DNA of 32,472 nucleotides from the NCBI GenBank assembly GCA_013152945.1, contig JAADFL010000029.1, forward strand, positions 1 to 32,472, in the 5' to 3' direction. Below are positions 24,855 through 32,114 of the stretch, in pieces. Below the pieces are notes generated by a model, which had not been told where the DNA came from, searched no databases, and saw nothing but the letters and a program-made list of their open reading frames with translations. How positions within the stretch are numbered: the first letter of the stretch is position 1; each line of letters begins with the position of its first letter. Both the position numbers and the translations under genes were made by a program. The stretch is from Deltaproteobacteria bacterium. Its GTDB lineage: Bacteria > Myxococcota_A > JAADFL01.

Positions 24855-26339
24855 ATGGGAAGGACCATCCTCCTAGCTGATGATAGCAAGACTATCAGGA
24901 AGGCCGTGGAAATGGCCTTGGACGGTGAGGATTATGATATCGTTGCAGTTTCCAGAGCTGCAGATGTGGTGCCTAAATGTAAGGAAATCGATCTCTCGGC
25001 TGTGTTGCTGGATGTCAATTTCAATGACAAAGAAGATCAAAGGACAGGCTTGGATATATGCAGGGAACTCAAGAGTGAAGACTCTTGCAGGGACATCCCT
25101 GTAATCTTCATGCATCCTTTGATGGGAACCTTTGATGAACAAGCAGCATTTTCAGCAGGCGGCAGCGGTCATGTGTCCAAGCCTTTCGAGTGCCGCGAGC
25201 TTTTGAGCGCCCTGGATGAAGCAATCTCGAGGCCGGCACAAGAGAAATCATCAGTAGCAGCAGCCATCTCGGAAACAATAAGTGACTTTGCCGGTTCTCC
25301 TGCGGAACCTCCTGCACCGGCAGAGTCGGAAGCGATTTCACCTGAGCCGGAAGCTGTGCCCACTGTACCTGAACAGGTCGAGGAGGATGTCGAGGCTATT
25401 GCCCCGGAACCCGGTGTCAATGAAGCCAGGCCGATTGCTCCCGAACCGATTGCTCCCGAACCATCCCTTGGCGATGCCCAGGATAAGGCGGCTACTGATT
25501 TCTCGAGCATGCCTTCTCCTGTGGATGCGCAAATTCCGGATACTGGTGAAGAGGGCATGGGGACATCGGCTGAAGACCTTCCCGAGGCATCGATCGAAGA
25601 CCTTCCCGAGGCATCGATCGAAGACCTTCCCGAGGCCTCGATCGAAGATCTGCCCGAGGCATCGATCGAAGACCTTCCCGAGGCATCGATCGAAGACCTT
25701 CCCAAGGAGCCGATCGAAGATCTTTCCGAGGCGCCGATTGAAGATGGCGGCAAACTGCCGGAAGAAGAAGTTTCAGAGTCAACTACGCCGGAGCCGCTCC
25801 AGGATGAAATAGAGGCTGCTGGCAATCCACCCGAAGCCGCTAATGCCGGAGAAGCAGGTGCAGCCACGGGGACCGAAGATATTGGGGAAGATGTTTTTGA
25901 TTTCGGCCTTGACGGTGAACCGGCTCAGTCAGGCGACAATGCGAGTGAGGGCTTATCATCTTCAGCCGATGAGGCCCATGAAGAGAATCCGGAAGAATCT
26001 CTTTCGGAAGAGATGCCCGAACCATGGAAGGGGGCTGATCTTTCGGCGAGTGACGGAGCTTTAGAGAGCGTGGAGACCGAGGAAACGCCTTCTGTGCCGG
26101 ACTCCTCTCCCGTTCCATCAAGTTTGGAACCAAAGCCTGTGGTCGCATCGGACAGCCGGCATGTCGAACCGGACGGACTTGAAGCATCGAAAGCCGGGAG
26201 TGATCTGGAACGCGAGTTGGGTGCTATTGCTTACAGGATAATTGAGAGAATTGCATGGGAAGTGGTTCCCGATCTTGCAGAAACTCTGATACGCGAGGAA
26301 CTGGATCGCTTGATCAGGGAAAAGAAGGGATCCAATTGA
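24855..26339 (+). CDS. Atypical response regulator with long acidic repeat linker and conserved C-terminal helix
   Basis: This 494-residue protein has AGGAGG just before ATG 24855. Receiver 1-125: acidic pocket Asp9/Asp10, phospho-acceptor Asp53 (LLDVNF) and Lys109 (SKPF) are present. The switch Ser/Thr expected after strand 4 is replaced (VIFMHP), so signalling may be unusual. Residues 126-450 are Pro/Glu/Ser-rich, strongly acidic and probably disordered, with seven 8-residue repeats of the type DLPEASIE at 241-296. The C-terminus (about 455-490) is a predicted amphipathic helix containing IAWEVVPDLAETLIREELDRL. I recall this motif at the ends of other deltaproteobacterial regulators. No DNA-binding domain is seen, so output is probably by protein contact. 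Confidence 0.8.
   Translation: MGRTILLADDSKTIRKAVEMALDGEDYDIVAVSRAADVVPKCKEIDLSAVLLDVNFNDKEDQRTGLDICRELKSEDSCRDIPVIFMHPLMGTFDEQAAFSAGGSGHVSKPFECRELLSALDEAISRPAQEKSSVAAAISETISDFAGSPAEPPAPAESEAISPEPEAVPTVPEQVEEDVEAIAPEPGVNEARPIAPEPIAPEPSLGDAQDKAATDFSSMPSPVDAQIPDTGEEGMGTSAEDLPEASIEDLPEASIEDLPEASIEDLPEASIEDLPEASIEDLPKEPIEDLSEAPIEDGGKLPEEEVSESTTPEPLQDEIEAAGNPPEAANAGEAGAATGTEDIGEDVFDFGLDGEPAQSGDNASEGLSSSADEAHEENPEESLSEEMPEPWKGADLSASDGALESVETEETPSVPDSSPVPSSLEPKPVVASDSRHVEPDGLEASKAGSDLERELGAIAYRIIERIAWEVVPDLAETLIREELDRLIREKKGSN
25575..25742 (+). repeat. Seven in-frame 24-bp tandem repeats
   Basis: Units begin at 25575, 25599, 25623, 25647, 25671, 25695 and 25719. Five encode DLPEASIE; the last two are DLPKEPIE and DLSEAPIE. 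The near identity at DNA level in the first five suggests recent expansion by slippage or unequal exchange. Copy number could vary between strains. Confidence 0.9.
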
Positions 26340-28097: not shown

Positions 28098-29060
28098 TTA
28101 TTCGTATACTTGTATCTTGTAGTCATTTCTTGCTGCAAAGGTGAAAACTTCGAGGGCGATATCACATTCGACGCCTATCTTTTTTGCTGTATCCAGATTG
28201 ATGGCAATCTCGAGTCCTTGGGGGAATTCTATGGGCAACAGGCTCGGGGACAGCCCCTGCCTAATGATTTTTTTTGCCATCTTTCCGGCTTGTCGGCCTA
28301 TCGACGACGGCGACGGAGATAGAGATACCAGTGCCCCGGCTTTTACCATCTTTTCCGAGATTGAGAAGAAAGGAATCTTGTGTTTTTTTGTAAAGTCCAC
28401 CAGGGTCCTGAAGGCCAGGGAATTCATCAATGTGGGATCCGGGACCATCCAAAGGGCGTCCACCTTGCCCAGGAAGGCACGTGCTCCCCTGGTCACATCC
28501 TCGGATCGATCGATCTTGGCAGGGACCAAGGCCATTCCCAGTTGTTCCGAATACTCGAAAGCTTTTTCGATAAGTCTGCGCGAGTACCTTGGATTGTACA
28601 TTACACCCACGGTTCTCGTTGAAGGCGCAATCGTCTGAAGGGTGGCCAATTGAGTCTTTATCGGCAAGCTCAAGGAGATCCCGGTGATATTGTCATTTGA
28701 CAGGTTATACCTTTCAGGATGGGGCACCATGCAAAATATTATGGGAATGTCATTTATTTCCCTGGCTGCGAGAGTGGCCGCTTCAGTGCCTATGACGAGA
28801 ATGGCAAGTGGTTTTCTGGAGCGAATTCTTTGAAAGATGCTTTGACCGCGTCTCAAGTTTCCTTTCATGTCATACTCGATGATACGCATCTTGGTTTCGA
28901 CGGAGAATGCCGTAAGAACGTCGTTGTAGATCTCCAGGTCTTTGCTCTTGACGGCGGCGATTTCTTTACTGGCCAGCGCACTTGTCGGATTACCCCAAAA
29001 GAACAAGATAGCAATCAATGTGGCAGAGAATTGACGCAGGTTTAAAAAGTTGTGTTTCAT
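28098..29060 (-). CDS. PF04392-type periplasmic substrate-binding protein, stand-alone
   Basis: The product is 320 residues from ATG 29060, which has GGGAG nearby; an in-frame ATG at 29078 has none. The N-terminus is a signal peptide ending near SALASKE. The mature part is a two-lobe binding protein of the ABC_sub_bind family, with TVGVMYNPRYSRRLIEKAFEYSEQLGM, LWMVPDPTLMNSLAF, VKAGALVSLSPSPSSIGRQAG and the terminal INLDTAKKIGV. Usual partners are ABC permease and ATPase genes, but none is nearby. It lies 51 bases downstream of the kinase-fold receptor gene on the same strand, so a ligand-sensing partnership is a reasonable inference. Confidence 0.85.
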   Translation of the reverse strand: MKHNFLNLRQFSATLIAILFFWGNPTSALASKEIAAVKSKDLEIYNDVLTAFSVETKMRIIEYDMKGNLRRGQSIFQRIRSRKPLAILVIGTEAATLAAREINDIPIIFCMVPHPERYNLSNDNITGISLSLPIKTQLATLQTIAPSTRTVGVMYNPRYSRRLIEKAFEYSEQLGMALVPAKIDRSEDVTRGARAFLGKVDALWMVPDPTLMNSLAFRTLVDFTKKHKIPFFSISEKMVKAGALVSLSPSPSSIGRQAGKMAKKIIRQGLSPSLLPIEFPQGLEIAINLDTAKKIGVECDIALEVFTFAARNDYKIQVYE

Positions 29061-29111
29061 ACATTCTCCCGTGGGCATTACTTTCTAATGGCGGCTTTTA
29101 CACCGGGATGA

Positions 29112-32100
29112 CTATTTGGAGATTGGATCGGCACAACAGCGAAAACCAGCCAACGGACCTTTTGAACTGGGCGCATGATTCTCCCGGCTGGCGCATCGCA
29201 CCGCCCAATCGGGACGATCCGCCGAGCCACCTTTTTGTACTCTATCTTTTATTGTAGATGACCACAAGCCTGATGTCCATTCACTAGCGTTACCACTCAT
29301 ATCAAAGACACCATAACCGCTTCTGCATTTTCTAAATGTCCCGGATGGACTAAGGTCGCGATCCTCTCCATTTTCATCTTCATTGTCGCATTTGTTCGGC
29401 TCGAAACGGTTACCATATGGATATTTTTTATTCCCCGGACCCTTACAAGCCTTTTCCCATTCTTCCTCGGTGCATAATCGTTTTCCTCTGCGTGCACATA
29501 GCTTTGATGCAGTGTACCAGGAGACATTGACCCTTGGCTTCAGACCCCGCCCGTTCGGGTACTCATAGTAATCGATACAATAGGCAGGCAACTCGATTTT
29601 CGTGTTTGCTTTTTCACCGAAGTTCCTCATTGGATCGCCGGGAGAGCTTCCCATCAGAAAAGGTCCGGCAGGGATCATTACCATGCCGCGGGGACACTTG
29701 ATATTGCCGGTCAGGTTGCCGGGCTGTGGTTGAGCTGCCATGGCGGCTTCCCGCTCTTTTTTTATTTTCTCCAGTTCTGCAGCTTTCTGTTGCTGCCTTT
29801 TCTTTTTCTCCAGTTCTGCAGCTTTCTGTTGCTGCCTTTTCTTTTTCTCCAGTTCTGCAGCTTTCTGTTGCTGCCTTTTTATTTTCTCCAGTTCTGCAGC
29901 TTTCTGTTGTTGCCTTTTCTTTTTCAAGGCTGCAAATTTTTTATTGTTTAAACCTTTTTTTGGTTTGCCTGCTTGTTTTACCGGTTTCACGTTCTTTCTT
30001 TTGTCTATTATATTTTCCTGTCCCGGCTCATTTTCCTGGTTCCGGCCGGCCTGTTCTTGTGCCTGCTTTTCGTTTTCAGGCTTTTTTATAACTTTTGCCT
30101 GGGCCGTTTCTTGCTTTTCCAAAGTCGGTTTCTCTTTGCTTGGGCTTGTCTCAACTAAAACCCGCGTCTTACTTGTTTGCTTCTTTTGTGCTCTTTCCTT
30201 GGCAATAGGGGAGGCATTCCGCTTGTAATTCGTTGGTTTTTCATTTGAACCGCCTGATGAGAGATAGAGCAGGCTGCCGCCGACAATCATGGCAATAATT
30301 ATCCCGATTACCGCCAGGACAGGTAGAATAGACTTGTTGGTGCGGCCCATTGATTCAGGACTTGTTGTTTTTGCGCTTTTATCAAGGGCAGGAGGTTCAG
30401 CTATTTCTTGCTTGGATGTCGGGGCTTTTTCCCCGGACGCGAGGTCGCGAACATCCGGTCCCAGTTCTTGACCGAGTTCGTCCGCCTGTGTGCCAGAATA
30501 TTTTTCGTCTTCTTCAGCGCCGATAATCCTGGCTACGGTTTCTTCACCGCCCAGGTGCTCGGCTGTTCGTATACCGGCTTCACGTTCGTCTTCCGGTGGA
30601 GGAGCGGGTAATGCCCCTTCTTCGATTCCCTCTTCAGACTCCTCTTCTTCCGGTTCATCGTCTCCCATGTCAATATCGATGGAAAATTCCTCTTCCTCGA
30701 TATTCGATTCGTCGACCGGTTGAAATTCGTCTTCTTTGCCTTTTGATGGCGGATGCTCTTCGTCAAGCTCGACTTGTTTCTCCTCGTGTATTTGTTCATC
30801 TATATTTTTTTGAGCAGGCACCTGCGAATCTTTCATAAAAACCGGGGTCTCTTTTGCTTTTGATGCAGGTACTGCCTCCAATTCAACATCATCCCAAGCA
30901 GAGTCATCGATGTCCGAAACTTTGTCGCTTGTTGTTGGGCCGGTTGAAGGTTTTTCGATTACTGGAGCCGCTTCTTTCGGCTGTTTGCTTTTTACATCAT
31001 CCGAATGTTCGGTATGTTCGGCCTTTTTCTTTTGTTTCAGAGTTTTTTTCTTTTTTTCAGCAGCCTTTCTTTTCCCGGCCGCCAATTGTTTATCCTCTGA
31101 TTTGCCGGGAATAGGAGGAGGCGAGGGAGATGGCCTGGATTGCGGCATACTGAGGTCATCCAGCGAGTAGGCATATGTAAGATCACCCTTTTCAAGTATC
31201 TCCAGCAAATCTTCGGCCAAATCCTCAACCGCCGGATATCTTACTGAAGGCACCGGGTGAACAGAACGTAAAAAAACATAATCCAAGGCCGGTGGAATCT
31301 GGTCATTGAATTTGGATAATTTGAAGGGGATCCCCTTGAAAATTCTTCCTGCAAGCATCTCTCCGATCATTATGCCCAAGGAGTAGATGTCGGTTCTCCG
31401 ATCGGCCCTTGCCGCAATATGTTTCTGTTCCGGAGAAAGGTAGTCAAGGGTTCCGCTTTCCGCCTGTGCGTTCAGATACGCCTCATGATGAATTGCCCGA
31501 TCCAAACAAAAATCAGTGACCTTGAGAAGGTCCGGCAAAACAATAATGTTGTCAGGTTTCAGGTTGCCGTGAAACGTATACTGGTGCGCATGCTGCAGGG
31601 CCAGTGAAACCTGGCTGATAATAGGTTCGATTTCCGGTATGCTGAATAGTTGCCCCTTGCCCTGACGAAGATCGATTATCTGCCTTAACGATAAGCCTTC
31701 AAGAAGCTGCATAGTCACATAATAGCTTCGGCCGATCTGTTCCACATCGTATATTCTTACGATGTTGGGCTGTGAAAATCTCCGGATTGCCCGTACAGAC
31801 TTGCCGAAACGATCCAGGCTTGCACTGTCCGGAAAAAGAGATGGGTCAAAATATTTCAGCGCAACATCCACGTCGATTTCAAGATCCCTGACCCTGTAAA
31901 CCACCCCCAGACCGCCACTGCCGATTACGTCAATAACTTCGTAACGCTCTGCAATCTTTTCACCTTTTTCATGAAAGGACTGGCGCGTGATTGGCGAGGT
32001 TTTCTTTCGTATGCCCCCACGGCCCGCATTATGCCCCTTTTTCAAGCGGTATCCGCAGTGTGGACAAATGTCAGTGCCATCCGGCAAGACGCTTCCGCAA

Positions 32101-32114
32101 CGGTAACAGAGCAA
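29112..32114 (-). CDS. Transmembrane protein kinase-like (predicted pseudokinase) with extracytoplasmic SUMF1/FGE-like domain
   Basis: This 1000-residue protein starts at TTG 32114, seven bases after GGAG. A zinc ribbon (Cys3, Cys6, Cys17, Cys20) is followed by a Ser/Thr-kinase fold at 57-310. Gly loop GSGGLG (65-70) and Lys87 are present, as are SPEQ and DIYSLG. However, the alpha-C Glu position is Ser106, the catalytic HRD Asp is Asn184 (HGNLKPDN) and DFG is DFC (201-203), so phosphotransfer is doubtful. A long acidic linker leads to a membrane helix at about 596-618. Then come a Lys/Gln/Glu-rich region with four 13-residue repeats (about 733-784) and a formylglycine-generating-enzyme-like domain (807-996: MVMIPAGPFLMGS, EEEWEKAC, DMSGNASEW, GFRCCAD). 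Only one of the two FGE active-site cysteines aligns (Cys974), so that domain is more likely ligand-binding. It is probably co-transcribed with the binding-protein gene. Confidence 0.88.
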   Translation of the reverse strand: MLCYRCGSVLPDGTDICPHCGYRLKKGHNAGRGGIRKKTSPITRQSFHEKGEKIAERYEVIDVIGSGGLGVVYRVRDLEIDVDVALKYFDPSLFPDSASLDRFGKSVRAIRRFSQPNIVRIYDVEQIGRSYYVTMQLLEGLSLRQIIDLRQGKGQLFSIPEIEPIISQVSLALQHAHQYTFHGNLKPDNIIVLPDLLKVTDFCLDRAIHHEAYLNAQAESGTLDYLSPEQKHIAARADRRTDIYSLGIMIGEMLAGRIFKGIPFKLSKFNDQIPPALDYVFLRSVHPVPSVRYPAVEDLAEDLLEILEKGDLTYAYSLDDLSMPQSRPSPSPPPIPGKSEDKQLAAGKRKAAEKKKKTLKQKKKAEHTEHSDDVKSKQPKEAAPVIEKPSTGPTTSDKVSDIDDSAWDDVELEAVPASKAKETPVFMKDSQVPAQKNIDEQIHEEKQVELDEEHPPSKGKEDEFQPVDESNIEEEEFSIDIDMGDDEPEEEESEEGIEEGALPAPPPEDEREAGIRTAEHLGGEETVARIIGAEEDEKYSGTQADELGQELGPDVRDLASGEKAPTSKQEIAEPPALDKSAKTTSPESMGRTNKSILPVLAVIGIIIAMIVGGSLLYLSSGGSNEKPTNYKRNASPIAKERAQKKQTSKTRVLVETSPSKEKPTLEKQETAQAKVIKKPENEKQAQEQAGRNQENEPGQENIIDKRKNVKPVKQAGKPKKGLNNKKFAALKKKRQQQKAAELEKIKRQQQKAAELEKKKRQQQKAAELEKKKRQQQKAAELEKIKKEREAAMAAQPQPGNLTGNIKCPRGMVMIPAGPFLMGSSPGDPMRNFGEKANTKIELPAYCIDYYEYPNGRGLKPRVNVSWYTASKLCARRGKRLCTEEEWEKACKGPGNKKYPYGNRFEPNKCDNEDENGEDRDLSPSGTFRKCRSGYGVFDMSGNASEWTSGLWSSTIKDRVQKGGSADRPDWAVRCASRENHAPSSKGPLAGFRCCADPISK
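29769..29924 (-). repeat. Four 39-bp tandem repeats inside the kinase-like gene
   Basis: Near-identical 39-bp units recur; the shared CCAGTTCTGCAG word on the + strand falls at 29771, 29810, 29849 and 29888. Each encodes 13 residues of the type QQQKAAELEKKKR, a coiled-coil or rod spacer between membrane helix and SUMF1 domain. The repeats keep frame and probably vary in number. Confidence 0.85.

Follow-up and report, generated by a model that had tools for sequence, protein, structure and literature searches.

A PF04392 binding protein encoded next to a pseudokinase–FGE receptor probably acts as the sensor of a signalling receptor rather than as a nutrient importer

Introduction

In the genome of a Deltaproteobacteria bacterium (GTDB lineage Myxococcota_A; JAADFL01; assembly GCA_013152945.1), one gene pair on the minus strand of contig JAADFL010000029.1 spans positions 28098–32114; a receptor gene comes first and a PF04392 binding-protein gene second. 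The window analysed here is the entire contig, 32,472 nucleotides in length. PF04392 is named for ABC transport. The locus raises the question of what such a protein does beside a receptor gene: does it belong to an importer, or does it sense a ligand on behalf of the receptor? The initial annotation favoured the second possibility; it described a possible two-component envelope sensor, in which the binding protein would pass its ligand state to a kinase-fold receptor.

Both functions have precedents. TrpX and CD0873, two members of PF04392, are importers (PMC6816091). Signalling from a binding protein to a sensor kinase has been described for LuxP/LuxQ, TorT/TorS and XylFII/LytS (PMC6321045), and signalling to a Ser/Thr kinase for GlnH–GlnX–PknG of Actinobacteria (PMC6069109, PMC9769921). 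One review describes the stimulation of receptors by binding proteins as general and widespread, and counts Ser/Thr kinases among these receptors (PMC9602780).

Results

Domain structure of the receptor

The receptor gene (29112–32114, minus strand, like all features described below) encodes a protein of 1000 residues; it starts with TTG, preceded by GGAGTAAGGA. The N-terminus contains a zinc ribbon of the form CYRC...CPHC (residues 3–24; 32043–32108), which gave sub-threshold Pfam matches and is kept in the f7 and f19 relatives. The kinase domain (residues 48–310; 31185–31973; Pkinase, 100 bits) resembles the StkP/PknB types most among the PDB kinases. Lys87 of VALK, the asparagine of KPDN and the aspartate of DFG are all kept. 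As listed in our motif table, HRD is replaced by HGN (31563–31571), DFG by DFC (31506–31514), and the glutamate of helix αC by serine; these replacements bear out the earlier assignment of the domain as a pseudokinase.

The kinase domain is connected to the membrane through an acidic, presumably cytoplasmic linker (30345–31184; net charge −38). The single transmembrane helix (residues 596–614; 30273–30329) has a hydropathy peak of 2.58; it is followed by a basic, presumably periplasmic spacer (29700–30257; net charge +27) with tandem coiled repeats RQQQKAAELEK.K, four of the RQQQKAAELEK type in total. At the DNA level, near-perfect tandem 39-nt repeats at 29766–29921 encode KKRQQQKAAELEK in this spacer, and a comparable repeat-rich spacer (REAKAQAAREER) is present in locus L159.

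The C-terminal domain (residues 806–997; 29124–29699; FGE-sulfatase, 98 bits) is a pseudo-FGE (SUMF1) domain with 10 cysteines. In the alignment to human FGE (1y1e), it lacks both active-site cysteines (C336 and C341 of the human enzyme); the AlphaFold2 model (pLDDT 80) keeps the FGE fold. Judged by their motifs, the kinase and FGE domains both look catalytically dead. Because the charges around the helix, acidic before and basic after, are the opposite of the positive-inside rule, the topology rests on the logic of the family. Most members of the family contain 8–10 cysteines on the C side of the helix versus 0–3 on the kinase side; from this distribution and the family topology, we infer that the FGE domain is periplasmic.

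Homologues of the receptor stand in other contexts

Homologues of the receptor are common in the phylum and were found across our sample of 377 genomes. The receptor of the window fits this pseudokinase–TM–FGE family, having a degenerate HRD/DFG kinase, a single helix and a cysteine-rich FGE domain that lacks the catalytic pair. HRD is absent in all 24 members compared in the motif table of the sampled phylum, and no member in the FGE alignment has the catalytic cysteine pair; by these motifs, the predicted loss of catalysis in both domains is a trait of the family.

The closest zinc-ribbon members (f7 and f19) have an active kinase gene nearby, lie upstream of genes that, by sequence recognition, we take to be purB- and purC-like, or both. 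Such genes were seen near zinc-ribbon receptors in L070–L075, L167, L168, L173 and L176; in L168, a response-regulator-like gene lies between them and the receptor gene. The f7 receptors often adjoin an active kinase and a PspA-like gene. No binding-protein gene was present beside the f7 and f19 homologues in the loci read. Since homologous receptors elsewhere have none alongside, the receptor can work without a binding protein. The exact receptor–PF04392 pair was found in no other genome when we inspected the surroundings of the receptor homologues and of the PF04392 genes in the phylum sample; the genomes searched offered no relative closer than the phylum level.

PF04392 genes recur beside receptor genes

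PF04392 matches above the cut-off occur in 44 of the sampled genomes, and we read the gene neighbourhoods in nearly all 44. In 14 genomes (G013, G028, G023, G037, G052, G197, G328, G202, G301, G072, G245, G099, G282 and G289), a Ser/Thr kinase gene is located immediately upstream of the PF04392 gene on the same strand; in G207 and G316, counted outside the 14, contig ends cut the upstream gene and the PEGA-like tail alone is visible. HRD and DFG are intact in all 14 kinases (motif table), and the PEGA tails gave a Pfam match in each of the three kinases scanned, one of them under the curated cut-off. The kinase–PEGA/PF04392 tandems belong to families f12, f15, f18 and f51 (L063–L067, L119–L125, L134 and L136); where the starts are clear, the gap is about −4 to +35 nt. 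Like the pair in the window, these tandems encode a single-pass kinase first and a binding protein second with tight spacing; different from it, their kinase is active by motif, the outer domain is PEGA-like and the binding protein comes from another branch.

Other receptor types were also found. A histidine kinase gene stands immediately downstream of the PF04392 gene in nine genomes, and PF04392 is fused to a histidine kinase in two weak matches. The PF04392 gene precedes a SpoIIE phosphatase gene in one case and follows a dCache chemoreceptor gene in another (L126:5594–8190 and L133:6047–8867). Only two sampled PF04392 proteins (G060 and G199) are transport-type by appearance, and about a dozen PF04392 genes have no recognisable partner.

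By chance, 0.5–1.6 of 46 PF04392 genes would be expected after a kinase gene if kinases make up 1–3.4% of genes; the upper value of about 1.6 comes from 3.4%, which is a loose bound. The sampled genomes are related, and the counts of coupled loci are not independent. The tree requires four changes of the Ser/Thr-kinase label; four independent origins by themselves give P of about 0.07 under the loose 3.4% bound, which is not extreme. The gene-neighbour survey proposed by the initial annotation thus gave a divided answer: coupling between sensor-type PF04392 proteins and receptors does recur, but the exact pair is confined to one genome.

Two further features of these neighbourhoods were recorded. 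In three f15 genomes (L112, L114 and L124), an OppD-like ABC ATPase gene lies directly downstream of the binding-protein gene; no accompanying permease was apparent in these three loci. Outer-membrane-receptor-like genes, with C-termini of the FVGLSYRF or IQVGVEVAF type by eye, adjoin many sensor-type PF04392 genes (L041, L043, L044, L056, L062 and others; also L115, L116, L124, L129 and L131), which suggests a shared extracellular ligand route. None was found near the pair in the window.

The binding protein and its relatives

The PF04392 gene (28098–29060) encodes a protein that matches the PF04392 (ABC_sub_bind) profile with 118 bits, compared to a gathering cut-off of 25.9. Read by eye, its N-terminus is a signal peptide (MKHNF...ALA) without a lipoprotein cysteine. 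The AlphaFold2 model (pLDDT 90.7) is of class I binding-protein fold, and its top PDB matches are three PF04392 structures, 3lft, 6hni–6hnj and 3lkv. The window protein thus shares its Pfam family and fold with CD0873 and TrpX, which are of the transport type. In CD0873, VC_1101 and SP1069, selectivity for aromatic ligands is set by Ala/Glu and Tyr/Gln positions (PMC6816091). These side-chain selectivity positions are Ser and Pro in our alignment of the window protein; an aromatic amino acid is therefore not predicted as the ligand, and this candidate was left unsupported.

The nearest relatives of the binding protein, at 31–39% identity, come from Brocadiales (anammox) and other Planctomycetota, together with one from Nitrospinota. 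In 18 of the 21 readable loci outside the phylum, the PF04392 gene is followed by a membrane receptor gene, which starts at a distance of −20 to +145 nt; nine of these receptors, checked with Pfam, are HAMP histidine kinases, HAMP–HD_5 (HD-GYP) proteins or a HAMP–PAS protein. The Brocadiales operons (L041–L062) contain the closest relatives and, like the locus in the window, place them next to a membrane receptor with no permease; different from the window, the receptor gene comes after the binding-protein gene and encodes a histidine kinase or an HD-GYP protein.

In the tree, the window protein groups as sister to the Planctomycetota set (support 94/93, just under the starred level of the tree tool). 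It falls outside the branch of the Ser/Thr-kinase-coupled operons; the tree gives no support for orthology with these, and they are analogous rather than orthologous pairs. Hence, on the tree, its partnership with a pseudokinase seems to stem from a separate recruitment in this lineage. Two sequence marks are shared by the receptor-coupled proteins and the window protein: an insertion of two residues that follows the D..V.T segment, and a motif of the V[KR]AGAL type. The transport-type proteins in the alignment (3lkv, 3lft, 6hni, L105 and L106) have no such insertion, and their motif differs.

Arrangement of the two genes

The longest open reading frame of the PF04392 gene starts at 29078, leaving 33 nt to the receptor gene. 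Because the ATG at 29060 carries a better Shine-Dalgarno sequence (GGGAG, 5 nt upstream), we adopted this start and a gap of 51 nt, in agreement with the 51 bases given previously. No terminator-like site was found in the intergenic stretch, and coaX is convergent to the downstream end of the pair. A response regulator is encoded at 24855–26339; its receiver domain is accompanied by a long C-terminal portion that matches nothing in Pfam. In the source genome, the chance of a gene following a kinase gene is about 0.5%.

The two genes could still be mere neighbours, or be co-transcribed, with the receptor sensing alone via its FGE fold and the binding protein serving another receptor, for instance a HAMP histidine kinase elsewhere. 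Such an arrangement would agree with the receptor homologues standing alone or in other contexts, with the closest relatives of the binding protein being coupled to histidine kinases, and with the pair being unique to the source genome within the sample. However, the shared strand, the narrow gap without a terminator, the convergent coaX and the low chance of following a kinase gene all argue against it, and we consider it rather unlikely.

No transporter partner in the genome

No ABC gene was found near the PF04392 gene when its neighbourhood on the contig was read, and this gene is the only one of its family in the 94%-complete assembly. The usual partner of PF04392 is a PF02653 (BPD_transp_2) permease. 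In L106, from the same phylum, the transport-type PF04392 gene has a PF02653 permease and an ATPase as neighbours, which makes PF02653 the appropriate test for transport. The profile search gave zero PF02653 matches in the whole 94%-complete genome; run on 14 control genomes, it was positive in 12. With a sole PF04392 gene and no PF02653, the binding protein is therefore a real orphan. The proposal that it lacks an ABC permease and ATPase thus extends from the neighbourhood to PF02653 genome-wide; the initial annotation had taken a transporter elsewhere in the genome as speaking against its reading, which the result favours. Assignment as an importer subunit of the TrpX/CD0873 type is not supported, the window protein having neither a cognate PF02653 permease/ATPase nor the aromatic-selectivity residues.

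A transporter subunit might nevertheless use a permease outside PF02653, or one absent from the assembly. The name of the family, the importers TrpX and CD0873 (PMC6816091) and the 94% completeness of the genome leave room for this, but the zero PF02653 matches next to positive controls, and sequence marks that are those of the receptor-coupled members and not of the transport-type members, make it very improbable. A recent accidental juxtaposition of two unrelated genes without shared function is the least probable explanation: it could be suspected in a single genome of 218 contigs, with the contig end, our visible limit, 358 nt upstream of the receptor gene, but both frames are open throughout, their codon composition resembles that of the neighbours, the spacing is tight and housekeeping genes share the contig.

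Discussion

The locus is best read as encoding a sensor-type binding protein together with a receptor partner that has become a double pseudoenzyme; the binding protein probably does the sensing for a signalling receptor rather than importing a nutrient. We regard as somewhat favoured that both genes belong to a single operon encoding a ligand receptor, consisting of binding protein, pseudo-FGE domain and pseudokinase scaffold. In such a receptor, the PF04392 protein would be exported and would close on a small molecule bound in its interlobe cleft; the outer, non-enzymatic FGE-fold domain would read the open or closed state, and the transmembrane helix would relay the change to the cytoplasmic pseudokinase. 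The pseudokinase, unable to phosphorylate, would act as a conformational or allosteric scaffold, probably controlling another Ser/Thr kinase of the genome, which has about 24 kinase-type matches, or some other partner. In our judgement, the kinase repertoire resembles that of Myxococcota. The periplasmic contact, the ligand-dependent signalling and the allosteric output are the inferred parts of this model. The idea of a binding protein passing its ligand state to the receptor gains from its orphan status, the two-gene unit and the receptor coupling of its relatives; it loses from the fact that the exact pair is not conserved beyond the source genome in anything sampled.

Compared to known systems, the principle is established and the type of receptor is new, so the earlier claim of an undescribed arrangement goes too far. 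The 'two-component' label is misleading, because the pair has no histidine kinase or response regulator. Like GlnH–GlnX–PknG, the locus would place an extracytoplasmic solute-binding protein, a membrane protein and a Ser/Thr-kinase pathway in series; GlnX and PknG are separate and PknG is active, whereas the window receptor joins a pseudokinase and an outer domain in one chain. In LuxP/LuxQ, TorT/TorS and XylFII/LytS, the binding protein docks onto a receptor kinase at its periplasmic domain, as proposed here; the receptors in those systems are sensor (histidine) kinases. We know of no LuxQ/TorS/LytS-type receptor whose outer domain has the FGE fold or whose kinase is a Hanks pseudokinase. In the literature searched, we found no description of a double pseudoenzyme receptor with a binding-protein partner or of a tandem PF04392/Ser/Thr-kinase operon; searches on PF04392 with histidine kinases and on pseudokinases with formylglycine gave nothing on point. 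It seems that these two arrangements are the undescribed parts.

A wider proposal, which we put forward tentatively and hold to be possible, is that a receptor of two dead enzymes is gated by a dedicated PF04392 protein recruited from a histidine-kinase-coupled lineage, within a wider exchange of partners. If true, sensor-type PF04392 proteins would have been swapped between Ser/Thr kinases, pseudokinases, histidine kinases, HD-GYP proteins, SpoIIE phosphatases and chemoreceptors. The stimuli of bacterial Ser/Thr kinases and pseudokinases are mostly unknown; an adjoining binding protein offers a handle, as it can be put through a thermal-shift screen for its ligand. The insertion and the V[KR]AGAL-type motif may separate sensor-type from transport-type PF04392 proteins, and the survey suggests that a large share of the 'ABC substrate-binding' PF04392 genes of the phylum are receptor subunits misnamed as transporters.
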